Shown piece after piece: positions 1-8,743 of a stretch of DNA of 16,562 bases. Location of the stretch: positions 7,908 through 24,469 of the forward strand of contig DCTV01000043.1 of assembly GCA_002329665.1 (NCBI GenBank), given 5' to 3'. The stretch's first letter is position 1. The number at the start of each line of letters is the position of its first letter. The DNA comes from Christensenella sp. UBA1431. Its GTDB lineage: Bacteria; Bacillota; Clostridia; Christensenellales; UBA1431. A program made the position numbers and the translations under genes. The notes under the pieces were generated by a model. The model saw only the letters and a program-made list of their open reading frames with translations. It did no database searches and was not told where the DNA came from.

Positions 1-493
1 CGATAAGGCTACCCTCGCCCTCGAACGATCCGGCCATCGTGCCGTCCGGGCGGACGAGGCAGACCTGCCGCGGCTTCTTCGCTTCCGGGCGCCCGTCCAC
101 CGCAAACACCAGGTACGCTTTGGCGTGCGCCTCCATCTCCCTGACAAGGGCGGTAAACACTTCGAGGTTGCCCGGGTCGCCCGCGTCGATATAGTCGATC
201 AGAATCTCGCCGGTGCCGCCGCAGATCATGTCGGTATCGGCCGCGTCCTTGGCGGTAAGATTAAACGGGTAGATGACCGGCTGCCTGGTCTTGAGGACCT
301 CGCGCGCGCGCTTTATGGCCATGGCCTCGAGCAGGCCCCCTCCGATCGTGCCCCGTATCGAGTCGTCGGGGAGAACGGCCATCTTCGCGCCCGCCGAGCG
401 CGGCGCCGACCCGTTTTCGCTGATGATGACGGCCAGCACGAAGCTTATCCCGTTTTCAAGCAGTTCGATGATGTCCCTGTAGAGATGAATCAT
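1..493 (-). CDS. XdhC/CoxI-family molybdenum-enzyme maturation factor (partial, C-terminus outside window)
   Basis: XdhC proteins hold the molybdenum cofactor, promote its sulfuration and insert it into xanthine-dehydrogenase-type enzymes in the cytoplasm. The 164 visible residues carry the N-terminal XdhC/CoxI signature: a GSAPR motif at residues 28-32 and GTIGGGLLE at 48-56, after an amphipathic first helix. The ATG at 493 has AAGGAG about 6 nt upstream. It starts 24 nt after the stop of the C-GCAxxG-C-C gene, so it is the last visible gene of the aldehyde oxidoreductase operon. The usual C-terminal Rossmann domain, if present, lies beyond position 1. Family assignment is firm. That it serves the oxidoreductase at 4216-6945 is inferred from context. 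Confidence 0.88.
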   Translation of the reverse strand, partial: MIHLYRDIIELLENGISFVLAVIISENGSAPRSAGAKMAVLPDDSIRGTIGGGLLEAMAIKRAREVLKTRQPVIYPFNLTAKDAADTDMICGGTGEILIDYIDAGDPGNLEVFTALVREMEAHAKAYLVFAVDGRPEAKKPRQVCLVRPDGTMAGSFEGEGSLI

Positions 494-517
494 AGGTCTC
501 TCCTTTATGCGTTCTTC

Positions 518-952
518 TTACATAAGGTCGTAACCGTTATCGGCCAGTATCTCCATCGCTTTGAAATATACGCCCTGTACGATCTTCGGGCAACGCTTCT
601 TCCGGTTGGCCATGTCGCCTTGAAGGATACTGGAACAATCCTCGCCTCCGTATGCCCCGCCGACTTCCTCTTCGAACCATTCGACCAGTGAAACGATCAT
701 GTCGTTGAGCCTGTCGTCCGCCCTTTCATCGGGCGCGCCCTTGCCCGCATAGTACGCGATCAGGCAGGCGCCGCCGGTGAGCGCGCCGCAGGTCTTCCCG
801 GAAAAGCCGAGTCCGCCCGCCAGCCCGCCCAGCGCGCGGACAAGGTCCGGGTTCTGCTTGCCTTCGGCTTCCAGCCGCAGCATCAGCAGGATCTGTGAGC
901 AGAAAAACCCCTGCGATGAAAGCTCCATCAGCCGCATCAGAAAATCGTCCAT
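518..952 (-). CDS. C-GCAxxG-C-C family putative redox protein (DVU_1555-like)
   Basis: This 144-aa soluble protein belongs to the C_GCAxxG_C_C family, small cysteine-rich proteins of unknown reaction thought to be redox-active or to bind a metal or cluster. With the start at 952 the cysteines fall at 18 (in the FFCSQ helix), 55 (KTCGALTGG), 63, 106 and 121, the spacing expected of the family. The frame is open up to 994, which would overlap the methyltransferase by 35 nt. I prefer the ATG at 952 because it begins 7 nt after the methyltransferase stop, has GAGGAG 11 nt upstream, and gives the family's usual N-terminus. In Desulfovibrio aldehyde-oxidoreductase loci a protein of this family sits at the same place. 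A role in cofactor handling or electron transfer is inferred. Confidence 0.85.
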   Translation of the reverse strand: MDDFLMRLMELSSQGFFCSQILLMLRLEAEGKQNPDLVRALGGLAGGLGFSGKTCGALTGGACLIAYYAGKGAPDERADDRLNDMIVSLVEWFEEEVGGAYGGEDCSSILQGDMANRKKRCPKIVQGVYFKAMEILADNGYDLM

Positions 953-959
953 CGTAAAG

Positions 960-1595
960 TCAGCTCCTCTCTCCACGCGGATCGTATTTAGCAACCATGA
1001 TGAAGTATCCCGGCCTGCACGACAGGTCGCCTTTCGTGCAGATGTCTTTCAATCGCGCGATGTCGCCGAGTTCCCAGAGCGCGCGCGCAACGAAGCGTTC
1101 CATTACGCCGGAGCAGTCCTCCCAGCGCAGCAAGGAAAAGCCCGCCGCGGCGAGCGCGTCCTTCCATTCCCGCTCCGGTTCCGGCGCCGCCTTGTCGTAA
1201 ACGTCGGACACCATCAGCTTCCCGCCGCGCCTGAGCACGCGCGCGCACTCGCCGAGCACGGTGGCGCGGTCGTCGAGCGCGTTGAGGCTGCATTCGAAAA
1301 GCAGCGCGTCCATCGAGCGCGCTTCAAACGGCAGGGACCGGGCGTCTGCGAGGAACACCGGCACCCCGTGACGCTTTCGCGCACAGCCAGCAAGGAGCGC
1401 GGAACTGTCCACGCCCGAGGCGTCGAATCCCTGCGCGCGCAAAAAAGCCACGCCGGCCCCCGTCCCGCAGCCGATGTCCGCCACCCGCGCGCCGTGTAAA
1501 AGCCCGGCTGATTCCAGCATCCGCCGGGTGAGGCCTCGGCCGCCGGGGTGCATCTCGTCGCTCATCCACGCTTCCCAAACGCTGATTTCGCTCAT
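960..1595 (-). CDS. class I SAM-dependent methyltransferase (DVU_1556-like)
   Basis: A 211-aa cytoplasmic Rossmann-fold methyltransferase. Motif I, VADIGCGTGAG, is at residues 38-48. The acidic residue that holds the SAM ribose is D63, motif II is around 82-86 (LADAR), and the post-II loop with LLFECSLNAL is at 98-107. The start ATG overlaps the stop of the 75-aa redox protein in an ATGA junction (1592-1595), which indicates translational coupling. The methyl acceptor is unknown. Conserved linkage with a molybdopterin aldehyde oxidoreductase suggests a step in cofactor or enzyme maturation. The C-terminal half contains an unusual cysteine-containing stretch (DICTKGDLSC) that could bind a metal. 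Family is certain, substrate unknown. Confidence 0.88.
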   Translation of the reverse strand: MSEISVWEAWMSDEMHPGGRGLTRRMLESAGLLHGARVADIGCGTGAGVAFLRAQGFDASGVDSSALLAGCARKRHGVPVFLADARSLPFEARSMDALLFECSLNALDDRATVLGECARVLRRGGKLMVSDVYDKAAPEPEREWKDALAAAGFSLLRWEDCSGVMERFVARALWELGDIARLKDICTKGDLSCRPGYFIMVAKYDPRGERS

Positions 1596-1819
1596 TTGTC
1601 CTCCAGCGACTTCTCCACCTGCAACATCCTCCCCAGCGCGAGTTCCTCAGGGATGTAGACGAGGCCGCACCGGCTGCATTTCGGCAGGTTCACCGGGAAG
1701 CTGCTGCCCAGATAGGAGAGCGTGACCGTGCCGATAACAAGCGGTATCCCGCATTTGTGGCAAACCATCTCCCCCGCTTCCGAAAGGTCGACGCCGCTGT
1801 CGTACGTTTCCTGGCTCAT
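1592..1819 (-). CDS. small two-CxxC redox/zinc-ribbon protein (DVU_1557-like)
   Basis: A 75-aa protein with two CxxC knuckles: C20/C23 (VCHKCG) and C48/C51 (KCSRCG). These could bind one zinc or iron as a zinc ribbon or rubredoxin-like site. A charged C-terminal helix follows (VEKSLEDK at the end). The frame is open further upstream, but the ATG at 1819 is preceded by GAGGTG at a good distance and starts 2 nt after the stop of the 758-aa oxidoreductase. The longer version would run deep into that gene. It is coupled to the methyltransferase through ATGA. I recall the same gene order in Desulfovibrio, where the protein is classed as a redox protein, but the metal and function are not shown by the sequence. 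Confidence 0.82.
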   Translation of the reverse strand: MSQETYDSGVDLSEAGEMVCHKCGIPLVIGTVTLSYLGSSFPVNLPKCSRCGLVYIPEELALGRMLQVEKSLEDK

Positions 1820-1821
1820 GT

Positions 1822-4098
1822 TCACACCTCTATATCCATGCGGTGGCTGTACGCCCTGTGCACCCTGAATCCGCCGTTTTCGGGAGTGTACCATACCCAG
1901 TAAGTGACGGCGCCCGACTTGTGGGATGCGACGAACCGCCCCGTGGCCTTATCGAGGATCTTGTTCCCCGATTCCTCGGCGGCTGCGACAGCCCTTGCGA
2001 TGTCCTCTTTGAGGATCATGCGCTCTTCCACGTCTTTTTCCACCTGTTCGTCCAACGTGACGGATACAGCGTAACCGGATTCCAATGCTTCCTCCCCCCA
2101 TATCTCCCTTAACAGTTGTGCCCTGAGCCCTTCGCGGTTCTCCCTGCGGAGCGAATACCCCGCTACCCCGGTCTCCTTAGCGCTATCCGCCGGATAGACC
2201 AGCTCGAGAAGATGCACCGCGCGGCTGTCTTCTCGGAGGATACTGTCGCGGCAGTTGATGCAGTAGGTCAGATAGTCCGACCCGCTCTGCCCGGCGCAGC
2301 GCGCCGCCATCTCGCGGCCGACGTTTGGGTTCGCGTAGTCCGTGAGCCCGCCGTACCCGCAGCATTGCGTGATCTCCCGCGCGTACCTGGGTTCCTCAAG
2401 CGTATATCCCATCTTTTCGGCGAGGCGGCGCACGCCGTCCTGTACGTCGGGCGCATGCCGCGTGGTGCAGGCGTCCTGTACGGCCAACACGCGCCCTTTC
2501 CCGTCGACAAAGTTTTCGGGGAGGCCAGTTTTGGACAGGACGTCCCATATCCCGCGCACCCGCATCCGGGGGTAGTGTGCCTTGAACACCGTAAAGCAGG
2601 TAGGGCAGGCGGCAATCACCTCCGGCTCGCCCAGGGACGCCCACGCCCCGGTCAGTTTCTCGACGGTCTCTTCGAAGAGCCGCTCTCTCCCGGCCCAATC
2701 CGCGATCACGCCGCAGCATCCGAGCATCAGGCCCACGCCGCCCGCAAGCCGCGAAGAAAGGTCCGCGTAGGCGCGCTTCACGAGGCCGGGCGCGGACGCG
2801 CCCAGCTGGCAGCCGGGGAAGAACACGTACCTGCTCTTTTCATGCCCCGGCTGGTTGCGCGCGAGGAAATAGGCGTCCGAGTTGCTGTGCGCCAGGTCCC
2901 GCAGCGCAAAGTCATGGGCAGACGGAGGCATCTTTTTGGTACGCACCATCTCCCTGCGGGCCTGCAGGCAGACCTCGCCCATGTTCAGGCCGTTGGGGCA
3001 GATCGCGGCGCACTGCCCGCAGAGGCTGCACGAGTTGATCATCTCGTTTCCGTGGCGCATCCCCATCACGATCGTAAGGTTATTGTACACTTCGCGCACG
3101 TACCGTTTGGGATACGATTTGTAGTGCGCGAGGAACGCGCAGCCCTTCACGCATTCGAGGCACTGGCACTGGATGCACCGCTGCGCTTCCTTCTGCGCTT
3201 CCTCCTTCGTGTACGCGCCGTCCGGCCCCGAAGGGGAAACGGCCGCGTGCGGCTCGATCCTCTCCGTGTCGGTATAAAGCTCCGTCTTGAACGCGCCTTC
3301 TCTCTCCCGCCCACTCGCGAGGGACACTCCCTGCAGGAACCGGTCTATCGATATCGCGGCGCGGCGGCCGTCGCCGACGGCGGCAATCGGCGAGCAATTC
3401 TTTAACCGCATCCTTCCACCCGCGAACACTTTCTCTATCCTGGTGGCAAGTGTGGTTTCATCCGTTTCCCCGAGTTCTTCGAACCCTTCTGCGCTTCCGG
3501 CGGCGACATATACGGCGTCATACCGCTCAGTAATATCGCTGAACGGCACGCCGCCTCGGCCGACCGGCTCGTTCAGTCGTATCGTGACCGGGAGCGGTTC
3601 GAGCACTTTCAGGTCCGTCTCCAGAAGTTCGGGCGGGAGTTTTTCCGGCGGCAGCGCCAAAAGGCTGCCCCCGGGCCTGTCGCTTTTTTCGTACAGCGTG
3701 ACCTGGTACCCTTTCCTGCCCAGTTCCGCTGCGGCACAAAGCCCGCTTAGACCTCCGCCCACCACGGCGACTTCTTTGTCGCGCTTCCTTAAAAACACGC
3801 TGCGCTGTTGCCTTGTCCCGTGTTCCACGCACGCGCGTTCCAAATTTCGGATCCGGATAGGGTCTCCCGCCTCACGCCGCTTGCACGCGGTCTGGCAGGG
3901 CGCATCGCAGATCCTGCTGACCACGGAGGGAAAGGCGACCGCTTTTGCGTAAACCGCAAGCGCCGCATCAAAATCTCCCTTCGCGACGGCCGCGGCCATT
4001 TTGCGCGCGTCCACATGCACCGGGCAGGCGGCCACGCACTCGGGCGGCTGTTCCTGTATGCACTTGGCTTCCAGTTCCCGCATGAGGTCCTGTTCCAT
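1822..4098 (-). CDS. pyridine nucleotide-disulfide oxidoreductase / dicluster Fe-S protein (DVU_1558-like)
   Basis: This 758-aa cytoplasmic electron-transfer protein is built from recognisable pieces. Residues 1-95 are a GltD/dihydropyrimidine-dehydrogenase-type Fe-S domain with C13, C21, C25 and C64, C68, C72. An FAD-binding domain starts with VAVVGGGLSGL at 110-120. A cysteine cluster at 308-320 is followed by a 4Fe-4S motif at C357, C360, C363, C367-P. Two HdrB/HdrD-type CCG segments follow: C430, the CC at 461-462, C498/C501; then the CC at 579-580, C613/C616. A C-terminal extension of about 120 residues has no motif I know. It lies directly downstream of the aldehyde oxidoreductase and probably passes electrons between it and another carrier. 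AAGGAGG precedes the ATG at 4098. Electron direction and partners are inferred. Confidence 0.9.
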   Translation of the reverse strand: MEQDLMRELEAKCIQEQPPECVAACPVHVDARKMAAAVAKGDFDAALAVYAKAVAFPSVVSRICDAPCQTACKRREAGDPIRIRNLERACVEHGTRQQRSVFLRKRDKEVAVVGGGLSGLCAAAELGRKGYQVTLYEKSDRPGGSLLALPPEKLPPELLETDLKVLEPLPVTIRLNEPVGRGGVPFSDITERYDAVYVAAGSAEGFEELGETDETTLATRIEKVFAGGRMRLKNCSPIAAVGDGRRAAISIDRFLQGVSLASGREREGAFKTELYTDTERIEPHAAVSPSGPDGAYTKEEAQKEAQRCIQCQCLECVKGCAFLAHYKSYPKRYVREVYNNLTIVMGMRHGNEMINSCSLCGQCAAICPNGLNMGEVCLQARREMVRTKKMPPSAHDFALRDLAHSNSDAYFLARNQPGHEKSRYVFFPGCQLGASAPGLVKRAYADLSSRLAGGVGLMLGCCGVIADWAGRERLFEETVEKLTGAWASLGEPEVIAACPTCFTVFKAHYPRMRVRGIWDVLSKTGLPENFVDGKGRVLAVQDACTTRHAPDVQDGVRRLAEKMGYTLEEPRYAREITQCCGYGGLTDYANPNVGREMAARCAGQSGSDYLTYCINCRDSILREDSRAVHLLELVYPADSAKETGVAGYSLRRENREGLRAQLLREIWGEEALESGYAVSVTLDEQVEKDVEERMILKEDIARAVAAAEESGNKILDKATGRFVASHKSGAVTYWVWYTPENGGFRVHRAYSHRMDIEV

Positions 4099-4215: not shown

Positions 4216-6945
4216 TTATTTGATTGCGTCGATTGCCGCCTTGACCTTTTCAGGCAGGGCGGGCACCGACGTCACCCTGGCGCCCGTCGCGTTGTAGATC
4301 GCGTTGAGGATCGCGGGGTGCGGCGCGGTCAGCGGGGCTTCGCCCACGCCCGCGGCGCCGAACGGACCGAGGGGCCGCGGCGTCTCTGTGTAGATGATCT
4401 CAAAGTCGTCGGGCACGTCGCGGATCGTGGGGATGCCGCAGCCGCGCAGCGAGGTGTGCTTCTTCAAATCTTCGAAGTCCTCGGTGAGCGCAAGCCCGAT
4501 GCCCTGTGCGATGCCGCCGTAGATCTGCCCGTCCACCACCGACTTGTTGATGATGGTGCCGACATCGGCTACAGTCAGGAATTTGACGACCTTGACCTTG
4601 CCGGTCTTCATGTCGACTTCCACTTCGGGCATGAACAGTTCGTACATATACACCGAGAACGGGTTGCCCTGCGCGTCATCCATGCTGCAGGCTGTGCATG
4701 CCGAGGCCACCCATTTGCCGTTGTACCTTAGCGGGATGTTCTCCGCTGCCATTTCGTCGTAGGTGCGGTAGGTGCCGTCCGGCTTCTGCATAGCCTTTAG
4801 AAGCATTTCGCAGCCAACCTTTATTGCGTTGCCTGTCATCACATTGCTGCGGCTGCCGCCGGCTGGTCCGCTATTGGGCGTAATACCCGTATCGTTCATA
4901 ACCAGCTTTATCTGGTTGGGTTTAAGGCCGAGCGGCCTGAGCGCTTCGTGGGCCATGGTCAGCGTTCCGATATCGGCGCCCTGCCCGTGGTCTTCCCAGG
5001 AGTCACCCACGAGCACCGTGCCGTCGGGCTGCAGTTCCACGAACGCTTCGGAGGAGTCGGGGCCGTCGAGGCCGCAGCCGTAGATGCCCAGCGAAAGGCC
5101 TACGCCGCGCCTGACCTCGTCGGTGGAGAGTTCCTTGCAGCGTTCCTTGGCCTCCTCGTAATGCGGGCGCAGCACGTCGAACATCTTCTCGAGGCAGTAC
5201 ACGTCCGGCTCACAGCCGTTGGGCGTCGTGGCGCCGGGACGGTAGATGTTCTTATAACGAAGTTCAAACGGGTCGACCCCCATCTTATCGGCCAGCATGT
5301 CCACGGCTATCTCCGAGGCGAGGAAGCTCTGCGGTGAGCCGTACGCGCGGAAAGCGCTGCCCCACGCGTGGTTGGTCGCGACGGTGTGGCCCTTCATGCG
5401 CACGTTCCGGATGTCGTACCCGGCGCCGATGAACTGCATCAGGCGCATGGTCAGAAGGTCGCCGAATTCCGAATACGGACCGTGGTCGATGATGCCGTCG
5501 GCTTCCAGTGCAGTGATCTTGCCGTCAGAATCCGCCGCCATCTTGATCTTCACGAACCCGGGCGAACGTTTTCCGGTGTACGTGATGCCCTGGAACATGT
5601 TGTAGGCCAGCGAAACGGGCTTGCCGCCGGTGGCCAGGCAGGCCACGCCGAGGAGCGCCTCCATCGTCGGGCTGAACTTATAGCCGAACGTACCGCCGGC
5701 CGGGTTCTGCACGATGCGCAGCTTCTCGGGTTCGATGCCGATACCGGGGCAGACCATCGCGTGGTGCAGGTGGATGCCGATGCTCTTGGAATGGATGGTC
5801 AGGCAGCCTGATTCGTCCATGTAGGCCAGGCCGCAGTCCGGCTCGATGGTAAGGTGCGGCTGACGGCTGCAGTACGTTTCGGTCTCGATGGTGTAGGCCG
5901 CCTTTTCGAACTCGGGCGCCGTTTCCCCGCCTTTGATGCAGTTGATCTGGTAGTATTCGTTGGGGACTCCGGGGTGGATTTCGATGGCGTCGGGCTCCAT
6001 GGCGGCCGGCGCGGACATGTAGGCGGGCAGGAGCTCGAGGTCCACTTTGACCTTCGCAGCCGCCGCCTGCGCGTTCTCGACGGTGTCCGCCGCCACGATC
6101 GCGATCGCATCGCCGAACTGGAACACCTTTTCGTCGCAGAGGATCGGGCGGTCCCAGCCGTCGCCCTTGTTGGTGGGGAATGTGATCAGGCCGGTGATCC
6201 GGTTCTTGCCGGGTACATCCTTATGCGTTATGACCTTGTACACGCCGGGCATCTTCTCGGCTTCGGAAGCGTCGATGCCCTTGATGTTGGCGTGGGAAAC
6301 GTCCGCCTGCACGAGCGCGAGGCGCAGGGTCCCCTCCGGCATCTGCAGGGCGACGTCGGCGCCGTAGTCCCAAGTGCCCGTGACTTTCCTTATCGCCGAT
6401 GGGCGATGGTATACCGTGCCCAGAATCTTGTTGCCGGTAGGCTTGAACAACAGGTCCTGTTTGCGCATCTCGCCGCGCAGTACCTTGGCCGCGTCCATCA
6501 CGGCGTCTACGAGAGGCTTGTAACCGGAACAGCGGCACACGTTCTGGTGCTTGGCAAACCATTCGCGCACCTCTTCGCGTGTCGGGCTGTCGTTCTCGTC
6601 CAGCAGAGCCTTGGCCGACATGATGAAGCCGGGGCTGCAGAACCCGCACTGCGCGCAGCCATGGCCCATCCAGGCCAGTTGCAGCGGATGCAGATTCTCG
6701 GGCGTGCCCAATCCCTCGATGGTCAGGACCACGTCGCCGTCCTCGATGCGCTTCATCTTGGTCACGCACGAGAGCGTGGCCTTGCCGTTGAGCAGGACCG
6801 TACATGCGCCGCACTGGCCTTGTCCGCACCCGACCTTGCAGCCTGTCAGCAACAGCTGTTTTCGCAGCACGTCGGCAAGCGAACTTTCCGGGTCAACGAT
6901 GAGCGTGCGGCTCGAACCGTTGATGTTGAGTACCTTTTTTTGCAT
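4216..6945 (-). CDS. mop: molybdopterin-dependent aldehyde oxidoreductase (Mop-like, DVU_1559-like)
   Basis: A 909-aa xanthine-oxidase-family enzyme that would oxidise aldehydes to carboxylates with water as oxygen donor. A plant-type 2Fe-2S domain has C40, C45, C48 and C60; a second 2Fe-2S domain has C100, C103, C137 and C139. The molybdopterin domains include GTFGYKFSP, FRAYGSPQ and HGQGADIG, and the catalytic Glu lies in GVGEAPLT. From memory these positions, including E869, coincide with those of D. gigas Mop, and long stretches are near-identical (for example GLITFPTNKGDGWDRPIL). No FAD domain is present, as in Mop. The frame is open to a GTG at 6954, but AGGAG overlaps that codon, so ATG 6945 is chosen. 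It is the central enzyme of the operon; the physiological aldehyde is unknown. Confidence 0.95.
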   Translation of the reverse strand: MQKKVLNINGSSRTLIVDPESSLADVLRKQLLLTGCKVGCGQGQCGACTVLLNGKATLSCVTKMKRIEDGDVVLTIEGLGTPENLHPLQLAWMGHGCAQCGFCSPGFIMSAKALLDENDSPTREEVREWFAKHQNVCRCSGYKPLVDAVMDAAKVLRGEMRKQDLLFKPTGNKILGTVYHRPSAIRKVTGTWDYGADVALQMPEGTLRLALVQADVSHANIKGIDASEAEKMPGVYKVITHKDVPGKNRITGLITFPTNKGDGWDRPILCDEKVFQFGDAIAIVAADTVENAQAAAAKVKVDLELLPAYMSAPAAMEPDAIEIHPGVPNEYYQINCIKGGETAPEFEKAAYTIETETYCSRQPHLTIEPDCGLAYMDESGCLTIHSKSIGIHLHHAMVCPGIGIEPEKLRIVQNPAGGTFGYKFSPTMEALLGVACLATGGKPVSLAYNMFQGITYTGKRSPGFVKIKMAADSDGKITALEADGIIDHGPYSEFGDLLTMRLMQFIGAGYDIRNVRMKGHTVATNHAWGSAFRAYGSPQSFLASEIAVDMLADKMGVDPFELRYKNIYRPGATTPNGCEPDVYCLEKMFDVLRPHYEEAKERCKELSTDEVRRGVGLSLGIYGCGLDGPDSSEAFVELQPDGTVLVGDSWEDHGQGADIGTLTMAHEALRPLGLKPNQIKLVMNDTGITPNSGPAGGSRSNVMTGNAIKVGCEMLLKAMQKPDGTYRTYDEMAAENIPLRYNGKWVASACTACSMDDAQGNPFSVYMYELFMPEVEVDMKTGKVKVVKFLTVADVGTIINKSVVDGQIYGGIAQGIGLALTEDFEDLKKHTSLRGCGIPTIRDVPDDFEIIYTETPRPLGPFGAAGVGEAPLTAPHPAILNAIYNATGARVTSVPALPEKVKAAIDAIK

Positions 6946-6953
6946 TCTCTTCA

Positions 6954-6958
6954 CTCCT
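6954..6958 (-). promoter_or_regulatory. ribosome binding site deciding the mop start
   Basis: AGGAG on the minus strand, 8 nt before the ATG at 6945. Its last base is also the first base of the upstream in-frame GTG (6952-6954), which therefore cannot be the start codon. The shorter protein also restores D. gigas Mop residue numbering. Confidence 0.75.
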
Positions 6959-7082: not shown

Positions 7083-7487
7083 CTATGAATCGCAATGATG
7101 CTCGTCGGGCCCCTGACCGGATATATCCATCAGCTTTTTCAGGTAGGCGTCAGACAGGAATACGATGCTACTGGAGCGTCCGGTCATGTCTTCGCCTGTA
7201 AGCACGATTCCGTTGTCGTTTTCCTCGTACCCGAGTTGCAGATGGCGCCTGTAGAGCTGTCCCGTGGCGGAATCCACCAGTTCCATCACCACGTTGTTGG
7301 CCACGATCTGGTCGACGCCGGATTCCGGTTCCTTATCTTCTAAGAGATTCGAAAACACTCCCTCGAGCGCGGCGTAAAAACAGTTCCTTAGGGCCATCAC
7401 CTCGTCCCTTGAAGATGGAGCTGCTTTTTGGATCAGTTCCCCGATAAACGACTCTATCCTGGCTCCGATGTCCTCGTCTGTTGACAC
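7083..7487 (-). CDS. protein of unknown function, first gene of the aldehyde oxidoreductase operon
   Basis: I do not recognise this 134-aa family. The protein is acidic and soluble, with no signal peptide or membrane segment. Residues 1-55 look helical. A mixed strand/helix part follows with hydrophobic strands around NNVVMELVD and NGIVLTGED, then SSSIVFLSD, and a polar tail ending HHCD that could bind a metal. The start is GTG at 7487, with AAGGAGG 7 nt upstream. It follows the tandem leader RNA and precedes mop by about 137 nt. That gap holds only a weak GCCC/GGGC hairpin, so the two are probably co-transcribed. Its position suggests a maturation or regulatory role for the oxidoreductase, but nothing in the sequence proves one. 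GC-rich codon use matches the operon. Confidence 0.75.
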   Translation of the reverse strand: MSTDEDIGARIESFIGELIQKAAPSSRDEVMALRNCFYAALEGVFSNLLEDKEPESGVDQIVANNVVMELVDSATGQLYRRHLQLGYEENDNGIVLTGEDMTGRSSSIVFLSDAYLKKLMDISGQGPDEHHCDS

Positions 7488-7559
7488 TCTCGTCCCTCCT
7501 TGTGTTGTTTGTCGAATCCGTTGTCCGGACGATAAACAATAAAAGGCATATGGCCGTTT

Positions 7560-7583
7560 CCCACCGCGGTCGGACGCGGCGGG
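7560..7583 (-). promoter_or_regulatory. candidate expression-platform hairpin after the leader RNA
   Basis: Read on the minus strand, CCCGCCGCG pairs with CGCGGTGGG over 9 bp (one G·U) around a 6-nt loop. It begins on the last base of leader copy B, so the two folds may compete. A U-rich stretch (TTTTATTGTTT) follows only about 20 nt later, after a TATGCC that could pair with the GGCATA opening copy B. It could be a terminator or antiterminator element, but the exact switch is not resolved by eye. Confidence 0.5.
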
Positions 7584-7693
7584 GCATTCTCCTTCCCGAA
7601 CCGGGAAGCCAGCCGGTTTCCCCGCTGACCTTTTCGCCTGCCGGCATGTCCCTCAGGGGTGAAGCGCGACAGGCTCGGAGACAACTGTATGCC
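7583..7693 (-). promoter_or_regulatory. structured leader RNA, copy B (gene-proximal); candidate Moco/Tuco-type riboswitch
   Basis: A 111-nt element matching copy A over its whole length. On the minus strand, GGCAT/ATGCC and UCUCC/GGAGA close the fold, and GAGCC pairs with GGUUC next to a GGGAA bulge. UGUCG/CGGCA forms an arm carrying a CCC-CUGA-GGG hairpin. CAGCGGG/CCGGCUG (one G·G) is capped by a GAAA tetraloop. Several pairs are G·U, which would be A·C on the other strand, so the RNA is minus-strand and leads into the oxidoreductase operon. A molybdenum-cofactor riboswitch fits the gene context and overall shape, but I could not compare it with the family model. Confidence 0.6.
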
Positions 7694-7758
7694 AATAAAG
7701 AATCCTTATGAAATTATTAAAGACATAGAGCAACCGAAACAAACGTAAAAACGCGTTT

Positions 7759-7871
7759 GGCGGTTCTCCTTTCCAAACCGGGAGGCCGCCACGTTTCCAT
7801 AACGACCCTATCGGCCTGCCGACATACCCCTCATGGGCGAAGCCCGACAGGCTCGGAGAATGCACTATGCC
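7759..7871 (-). promoter_or_regulatory. structured leader RNA, copy A (5'-most); candidate Moco/Tuco-type riboswitch
   Basis: A 113-nt element that begins about 6-7 nt after the predicted transcription start. It has the same layout as copy B: UCUCC/GGAGA, GAGCC/GGUUU with a GGAAA bulge, and UGUCG/CGGCA with an inner CCC-AUGA-GGG hairpin. A 7-bp stem CGUUAUG/CGUGGCG is capped by GAAA. That stem differs at most positions from copy B yet still pairs, so the two copies covary. This is strong evidence for selected RNA structure. The linker to copy B is about 65 nt and AT-rich. Confidence 0.6.
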
Positions 7872-7984: not shown

Positions 7985-8743
7985 ATGATCGTAGAAGAAC
8001 TCATTGCCAACGCTGCCGCGCTCTCAAGTGCAAAAACCGTCGCCGACGTGCGTATCGGCCTCGGGACTACGGCCGTTCTGCTTTCGGACGGCGCATGCGG
8101 CCTGAGTTACACGATGCACCCGGGCACGGGCGCGCACTGCCATGTGCTCGACGAAGCCGGCAGCCTGTCCGGCCGCGAAGCGAAGGTGGCCGCCACCTGG
8201 GCAATGGCCGCGGACCCGGTGCTGTCCAGCGTCGGCATCGCCGTGCTCAACGCCCTGTTCGCCCCTGTCGTTACCGGGTTCTCAAAAGAAAACGCGATGG
8301 ATGCCGTCGACATACGTCCTGGCGACACCCTCGGCATGGTGGGGCATTTCGCGCCGTTTATCAGCAGGCACGGCCACCGCATCGACAGGCTTTTCGTGTT
8401 CGACCGGGACGCTGCCGGACGAGACATCTATCCGGACTGGGCTGAGGACATCTACCTCCCCCAGTGCGACGTCGTTATCGTAACCGGGACGACCCTCATC
8501 AACAAAACCATCGACCACGTGCTCTCCCTTTGCACGTCCGCGCGCGAGATCGCGCTCATGGGCGCATCTACCTGCCTGTGCCCCGATGTGTTCCGGGCGC
8601 ACGGTGTAAGCCTGATCGCGGGCACCCGCGTCACCGACTCCAATATAGCGCTCGGGATAGTATCCGAGGGCGGGGGAACGCCGGCCCTCCGCGGCTGCAC
8701 CGAACACCTCTGCATCCGGCTGAAAAACCAAGGACGTTGCTGA
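7985..8743 (+). CDS. DUF4213/DUF364 putative heavy-metal chelation protein
   Basis: This 252-aa cytoplasmic protein has an N-terminal DUF4213 (enolase N-terminal-like) part, about residues 1-90, with GLGTTAVLLSD. A C-terminal Rossmann-like DUF364 part (about 108-225) has GMVGHFAPFI near 117-126, CDVVIVTGTTLINKTI at 161-176, LMGASTCLCPDVF at 191-203 and AGTRVTD at 212-218. These match the family pattern (VG-FPP, TG-TL-N-T, GPS, G--V-D) well. Structural work on a Desulfitobacterium homologue led to the label 'putative heavy-metal chelation domain'; the reaction is unknown. AAAGGA precedes the ATG. Divergent placement next to a molybdenum operon suggests a role in handling the metal or cofactor, as inference only. 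The extra cysteines C197 and C199 in the GPS loop are unusual. Confidence 0.85.
   Translation: MIVEELIANAAALSSAKTVADVRIGLGTTAVLLSDGACGLSYTMHPGTGAHCHVLDEAGSLSGREAKVAATWAMAADPVLSSVGIAVLNALFAPVVTGFSKENAMDAVDIRPGDTLGMVGHFAPFISRHGHRIDRLFVFDRDAAGRDIYPDWAEDIYLPQCDVVIVTGTTLINKTIDHVLSLCTSAREIALMGASTCLCPDVFRAHGVSLIAGTRVTDSNIALGIVSEGGGTPALRGCTEHLCIRLKNQGRC

Follow-up and report, generated by a model that had tools for sequence, protein, structure and literature searches.

The closest described systems are the Moco RNAs of the Rfam family RF01055. In Regulski et al. (2008; PMC2408646), 58 of 176 Moco RNAs lack P3 and are linked to tungsten-cofactor metabolism; the match of P3-less RNAs with tungsten metabolism is given there as near-perfect, and only two GAAA-bearing members are without the receptor. 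Tandem arrangements are also on record: among the Moco RNAs compiled by Sherlock et al. (2022; PMC9481103) are 13 doublets and 2 triplets, and the same paper gives tandem Wco RNAs in front of genes other than those of cofactor synthesis.

Here, a tandem pair of P3-less Moco RNAs is described in a 16,562-nt stretch of the genome of Christensenella sp. UBA1431 (contig DCTV01000043.1), referred to as the window. The pair lies upstream of Mo/W cofactor genes, namely an operon encoding an aldehyde oxidoreductase and its maturation factors. The RNA class and its doubling are already known, and the pair is one more example of the published list. A preliminary description of the window had considered a tandem pair before a structural enzyme uncommon, an expectation that does not agree with the tandem Moco/Wco RNAs before non-biosynthetic genes, e.g., hydrogenases, in PMC9481103. 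A literature search covering titles and text passages retrieved no report of P3-less RNAs before the aldehyde oxidoreductase family encoded here. The RNAs and the genes following them are:

7750..7870, minus strand: aptamer 1 (RF01055, P3-less; 121 nt, P1-to-P1 core 7765-7860; 70.8 bits with the Rfam model, 76.8 bits with model R1)
7573..7692, minus strand: aptamer 2 (RF01055, P3-less; 120 nt, P1-to-P1 core 7588-7682; 38.1 bits with the Rfam model, 55.7 bits with model R1)
7485..7501, minus strand: Shine-Dalgarno sequence AAGGAGG and GTG start codon of the first gene, read from the sequence
7083..7487, minus strand: first gene, 134 aa, without Pfam or NCBIfam match
4216..6954, minus strand: aldehyde oxidoreductase (NF045668, 1635 bits, cut-off 1100) with Pfam 2Fe-2S and molybdopterin domains and no FAD domain
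1822..4098, minus strand: pyridine nucleotide-disulfide oxidoreductase/dicluster-binding protein (NF045663, NCBIfam)
2..1894, minus strand: DVU_1557-like redox protein, DVU_1556-like methyltransferase, C-GCAxxG-C-C protein (DVU_1555/1556/1557-type) and the start of an XdhC-type factor (NCBIfam)

Both elements are genuine members of the Moco RNA family. With the RF01055 covariance model, a search that the preliminary description had proposed, copy 1 (aptamer 1) was found in the window with an E-value of 1.2e-15 and copy 2 (aptamer 2) with 4.5e-06, both above the Rfam cut-off of 36 bits, and a scan of the window with filters off revealed no further match reaching 9 bits. The serial order of the two elements on the minus strand was thereby recovered, with a period of 177-178 nt and a gap of 57 nt, and the Rfam matches together with the gene content support the supposed sensor of the molybdenum or tungsten cofactor in front of a molybdenum-hydroxylase operon. 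By fold energy alone, 4 of 200 shuffled sequences were as stable as copy 1 and none of 200 as stable as copy 2.

The Moco RNA architecture of P1, P2, P4 and P5 around a conserved junction is present in both copies, and 30 (copy 1) and 28 (copy 2) of the 31 consensus pairs are formed. The P1 helix UCUCC/GGAGA had been assigned correctly, and the hairpin described with an NUGA loop (AUGA/CUGA) makes up the inner portion of P2. A proposed GAGCC/GGUUY helix had to be replaced: in the family, GCC and GGC form the basal pairs of P2, with both-sided variation at these three pairs in 4, 6 and 6 of 24 sequences, and GGUU is located in the P5 loop. The GAAA-capped stem is P4, which keeps its tetraloop in both copies and is paired throughout in copy 1, but contains one G-G in copy 2 that the strands given earlier (CAGCGGG/CCGGCUG) had masked. 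Covariation between the copies, also claimed before, holds for three of the four consensus pairs differing on both sides, which are compensated, and fails for the fourth, which is broken (A-U to G-G).

P3 is absent from both copies, and P2 and P4 are joined by linkers of 4-5 nt (CGATA in copy 1, GAAA in copy 2). In P2, the 5′ side of the GAAA receptor (7839-7842 and 7661-7664, minus strand) is CUUC in both, compared with CUAA in 17 of 22 other aligned aptamers; a pattern count over 176 RNAs of other genomes yielded CUAA in 101 and CUUC in 7. Copy 2 further deviates by a C-A in the P2 inner arm, by GGGAAGG for GGAAAGG and by GGCGAAA for the usual linker. The copies are 75% identical to each other, the next best value among the 24 sequences being 63%, and judged by these sequences the pair would most simply be a local duplication. 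Upstream, one promoter-like site (7910-7882) was found, with 0.7 expected, and was set aside. A divergent gene with DUF4213 and DUF364 domains (7985-8743, plus strand; putative heavy-metal chelation) begins about 115 nt from the leader, and a functional tie of this gene to the Mo/W operon is possible.

Because copy 2 is close to the Rfam cut-off, a separate model, R1, was built from 20 P3-less sequences, all from genomes other than that of the window. The training alignment A3 consists of 20 of the 37 rows of alignment A2, the rows dropped before the covariation count being mostly out of register at the 3′ side (MAFFT). In 801,686 bases from 83 sources, R1 detected copy 1 with E = 1.2e-19 and copy 2 with E = 2.7e-13. 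At E ≤ 1, 24 matches were obtained, every one below 2e-11; four of them are training sequences (L085 minus, L087 minus, L096 and L114), which do not include the window copies. In the training alignment, 90.5% of the cells are paired and both-sided changes occur at 23 of the 31 pairs, with a covariation score of 0.525 compared to 0.205 for shuffled and at most 0.133 for slid partners. The alignment of the 24 matches fitted to the structure is 93.2% paired, with both-sided changes at 22 pairs. The new model from homologues that had been suggested thus recovers both copies and covaries strongly.

Proteins related to the 134-aa product (38-48% identity) are encoded in 21 of 80 aldehyde oxidoreductase loci, in some of them upstream and in others at the distal end. 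Past the window end, genes for an XdhC-type maturation factor, a MocA-like NTP transferase and TrsS follow. The closest solved relatives of the aldehyde oxidoreductase, matched over the full length, are 1dgj (1300 bits) and 1sij (1292 bits; also 1vlb), which we take to be molybdenum enzymes. Among 297 genomes sampled from the order, the enzyme was found at E ≤ 1e-200 in four, including that of the window; in the three other loci no RNA above 12 bits was detected, and the match in G026 begins at the first base of its contig and has no upstream DNA.

Within the genome of the window (1.53 Mb, 74.7% complete), four RF01055 matches at three loci were identified, window pair included, and all four are P3-less by reading. 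A single RNA (L022, G000 C10:22084-22202, minus strand) lies 76 nt before the sole AFOR_N match found in the genome; it is of the long form, as is the window pair, and no terminator was found after it by scan. Enzymes of the AFOR family are tungsten-dependent. The RNA L023:6441-6536 (plus strand) is followed by a terminator-like hairpin, a gene for a 378-aa lipoprotein-like protein and, further on, a MobB-like gene. No TupA, no PF00994 match and no MoaA above its own cut-off were found in this genome, though cofactor enzymes are present; as the genome is incomplete, no conclusion is drawn from their absence.

Same-strand RNAs upstream of this aldehyde oxidoreductase are present in 15 of the 80 loci, with up to 4 kb of upstream DNA covered per locus. 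In total these are 18 RNAs, all P3-less, and the loci presumably belong to Bacillota, Synergistota, Spirochaetota and Desulfobacterota. Although the training set of R1 was P3-less, the model finds all 20 P3-bearing RNAs of these genomes at E ≤ 1 (at least 26.9 bits) in a search of their loci, and a simple pattern scan revealed no RNA with P3 in the 80 loci, so that the absence of P3 RNAs there is not merely a blind spot. The RNA lies within about 1.4 kb of the enzyme in nine loci (L065, L078, L082, L083, L087, L093, L096, L109 and L117), at 2.2 kb in L085 and at 3.5-3.8 kb in the Sporomusa loci L050, L053, L055 and L058 and in L114. Between RNA and enzyme, L050 and L058 carry a regulator, which in L050 is of the sigma-54 type, and a gene resembling the one of L117. 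Due to the intervening genes and the distance of 3.5-3.8 kb, RNA control of the enzyme is putative in the Sporomusa loci and L114. A close tandem pair before this enzyme occurs in one of the 15 loci, that of Desulfocucumis palustris (L117). In Desulforamulus aeronauticus, whose aldehyde oxidoreductase has P3-less RNAs upstream on its own strand, a P3-less RNA (L087:1677-1772, minus strand) also stands before a TupA-like gene divergent from the enzyme; the best NCBIfam match of this TupA-like protein is NF041772 (175 bits, under the cut-off of 400).

The relation of P3 to the metal was surveyed in 35 genomes, i.e., that of the window and the 34 of 77 with RNA matches. AFOR_N is encoded in 31 of the 35 and a relative of the TupA-like protein of L087 in 28. 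Classification by reading gave 152 P3-less RNAs, 20 with P3 and 2 unassigned (G100:C90 and G109:C14:13193, the latter before TupA) in the 34 other genomes, where one 242-nt match was excluded and the class of some RNAs below 99 nt rests on their length. Downstream genes were counted on the same strand within 1.5 kb. An AFOR gene or TupA relative follows 30 of the 152 P3-less RNAs compared to one of the 20 with P3 (p = 0.13), the latter standing before an AFOR gene, and the aldehyde oxidoreductase follows 18 and none, respectively (p = 0.14). Any of the three follows 48 of 152 versus 1 of 20 (p = 0.015), a pooled test made after the separate ones and on related genomes that are not independent. 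P3-less RNAs precede tungstate-uptake, AFOR and these aldehyde oxidoreductase genes, in the direction of the published rule.

Two other ways of assigning the P3 class were given up. Classification by match length (P3-less up to 126 nt) was replaced by reading, which found 5 of the 27 long matches to be P3-less (including L065) and 20 to bear P3; the length-based counts had been 31 of 151 versus 2 of 27 for AFOR/TupA (p = 0.18) and a table of 18/0 versus 129/27 for the aldehyde oxidoreductase (p = 0.08), with the L065 RNA misclassed. Linker lengths taken straight from the model alignment were dropped, as they missed most P3 stems.

Of the 18 other P3-less RNAs before AFOR genes, 11 have a compact form (core 83-87 nt, without the CUAA/GAAA receptor), unlike the window pair. 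The compact P3-less form was read in 19 of the 176 RNAs (core 83-89 nt; e.g., G074:C5:170701-170783, G071:C57:72411-72497 and G066:C6:142212-142298), 11 of them directly before AFOR genes. Its P4 cap is by eye GGAA, GUAA, GCAA or GCGA and not GAAA, the CUAA receptor is missing, and the 3′ side resembles GCCUGCC...GCAAAGGAAG; it is possibly a subtype of its own. In another recurring form (15 RNAs, e.g., G071:C109:112259-112352 and G132:C11:56124-56223), CUCCUUAGC replaces CUCCGAGC, and CGAUCGGUAU stands before P4.

The leader was also searched for expression platforms. A canonical intrinsic terminator was found after neither window copy, and the following hairpins were predicted from fold energies, which omit tertiary contacts and ligand:

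7728..7769, minus strand: hairpin B, candidate expression platform 1 (7726-7770: -16.3 kcal/mol, z -3.27, 0 of 200 shuffles as stable)
7750..7795, minus strand: hairpin A, terminator-like stem and U-run (-15.7 kcal/mol, z -0.79), which needs P4 and P1 of aptamer 1 opened
7560..7583, minus strand: hairpin C, directly after aptamer 2 (7556-7586: -19.1 kcal/mol, z -4.53), with a U-rich stretch about 14 nt later
7496..7545, minus strand: hairpin extending into the ribosome-binding site, through which aptamer 2 may act on translation as its candidate platform (-12.4 kcal/mol, z -3.34)

Hairpin A is doubtful as a terminator and was rejected as main platform, since it is no more stable than shuffled sequences (43 of 200 as stable). 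Hairpin B takes up the 3′ strand of the aptamer 1 P1 in its 5′ arm, and full hairpin B and P1 are therefore mutually exclusive. In transcripts of increasing length, the pair probability of this P1 (five pairs) is 0.69-0.96 for a transcript ending at P1 and about 0.5 after fifteen more bases, drops to 0.06-0.07 with hairpin B complete and returns to 0.58-0.71 once the transcript reaches copy 2, a fall and recovery that indicates two nearly balanced states. The P1 of aptamer 2 opens in the fold model once the start codon is transcribed, and in the computed fold the P1 5′ strand shows long-range pairing with the region 7496..7545.

The direction of control was approached from the fold model and from relatives. 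Forcing P1 of aptamer 2 in silico raised the unpaired probability at 5 of 7 ribosome-site bases and lowered it at 2, and the modelled fold thus leans to ON. Among relatives of both P3 types, an intrinsic terminator follows 43 of 65 distinct aptamers. In the 42 terminators tested, the 5′ arm and loop are more complementary to the aptamer 3′ strand than in 229 others (p = 1.3e-7). Of 100 shuffled probes, 25 equalled the true one in complementarity to the terminators, so a large part of this signal is due to base composition, and it was kept as a hint; as a sequence argument, the relatives' terminators lean to OFF. The E. coli Moco RNA represses according to PMC2408646. On balance, it is slightly more probable that ligand binding turns the operon OFF than ON.

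The reading preferred here is that two homologous P3-less aptamers with their own platforms steepen the response to one ligand and that the tungsten cofactor lowers operon expression; as a whole, its chances are about even. P1 of aptamer 1 would compete with hairpin B as platform 1, and aptamer 2 would act through hairpin C and the hairpin reaching the ribosome-binding site as platform 2. An own platform per aptamer would result in a steeper, 'pseudo-cooperative' response to one ligand, and such action of the pair is probable. Both aptamers are of the same P3-less type, which makes the two-input response considered in the preliminary description unlikely. With less weight, the ligand of both copies would be the tungsten cofactor rather than Moco, and its binding would lower operon expression, so that the molybdenum enzyme would be made when tungsten cofactor, and thus AFOR, is short. 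By analogy, the published P3 correlation (PMC2408646) points to the tungsten cofactor, which appears a fairly likely ligand. Counting against tungsten are the solved relatives of the enzyme, presumably molybdenum enzymes, and TupA, which was not found in the 74.7% complete genome.

Alternatively, both copies may sense Moco, in which case the absence of P3 would not decide the metal and the operon would simply respond to the cofactor it uses, a possibility to be taken seriously even though it is the less probable one. It would account for the match of the enzyme to structurally known aldehyde oxidoreductases of the presumed molybdenum type and for the P3-less RNAs that 15 of the 80 loci have upstream of it, and it accords with the P3-bearing RNA before an AFOR gene in one genome and with AFOR/TupA alone not being significantly tied to P3 absence (p = 0.13). 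It does not fit the AFOR and TupA genes behind P3-less RNAs, nor the near-perfect match with tungsten metabolism stated in PMC2408646. That copy 1 alone works and copy 2 is a decaying duplicate is rather unlikely: the barely sufficient Rfam score of copy 2 (38.1 vs. 36), its G-G in P4, the C-A in the P2 inner arm and the GGGAAGG and GGCGAAA deviations speak for decay, whereas its 55.7 bits with the P3-less model R1, the formation of 28 of 31 pairs, compensation at three of the four pairs that differ from copy 1 on both sides, and 0 of 200 shuffles folding as well speak against it. A mobile or REP-like repeat lying before the operon by chance, looked for as a refutation of the sensor, would also produce two similar adjoining copies; with just four copies at three loci in 1.53 Mb, high Rfam scores, covariation in other genomes and the recurring position before Mo/W genes, this explanation is hardly credible.

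Under the preferred reading of a doubled tungsten-cofactor sensor, the pair may, as a speculative extension, act with a sharp threshold and switch off the operon of the molybdenum aldehyde oxidoreductase, maturation genes included, while AFOR in this genome has one such sensor. This RNA-level metal swap, if true, would take place between two unrelated enzymes for the same chemistry. P3-less RNAs at this enzyme in four phyla would then mean a general regulon, or a 'molybdenum' enzyme using tungsten there. The main point is the mismatch between a sensor of the presumed tungsten type and a molybdenum-like enzyme, which occurs in several phyla and is testable. The metal selectivity of the Moco RNA class rests on the 2008 correlation, and such leaders are clean test cases, which would show either the P3 rule failing or tungsten status controlling molybdenum enzymes.

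Tandem arrays are not rare in the genomes searched: RF01055 matches at E ≤ 0.01 were obtained in 42 of 138 genomes, and 10 of these 42 contain in total 16 arrays with gaps below 300 nt, including the window pair and two arrays with a member below cut-off. In three cases (G109, G118 and G103) a tandem pair precedes TupA; one member of the G103 pair scores 24.5 bits. Triple series were observed at G074:C5:353436-354044 and G118:C146:27127-27593.

Compared with the known systems, the window copies share P1, P2, P4 with GAAA, P5, the junction and the Mo/W gene context with the Moco RNA RF01055 as described in PMC2408646, but lack P3 and carry CUUC in place of CUAA at the receptor 5′ side. Like the P3-lacking Tuco/Wco RNAs, for which that paper describes tandem and triple arrays in Syntrophomonas wolfei, the window pair is P3-less and in series; it differs in standing before an XDH-family aldehyde oxidoreductase operon and in having no plain terminator after either copy. 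With the pseudo-cooperative tandem riboswitches (TPP and others) in PMC9481103, the window leader has two homologous aptamers in common, the separate expression platforms being putative in the window. In Desulfocucumis palustris (L117), the receptors are canonical, a terminator follows each copy and the gene between RNA and enzyme matches the molybdenum cofactor synthesis domain TIGR00177 below cut-off (59.7 bits against 85.35), unlike in the window; both loci nevertheless consist of two P3-less aptamers with a period of 177-178 nt before the same enzyme.
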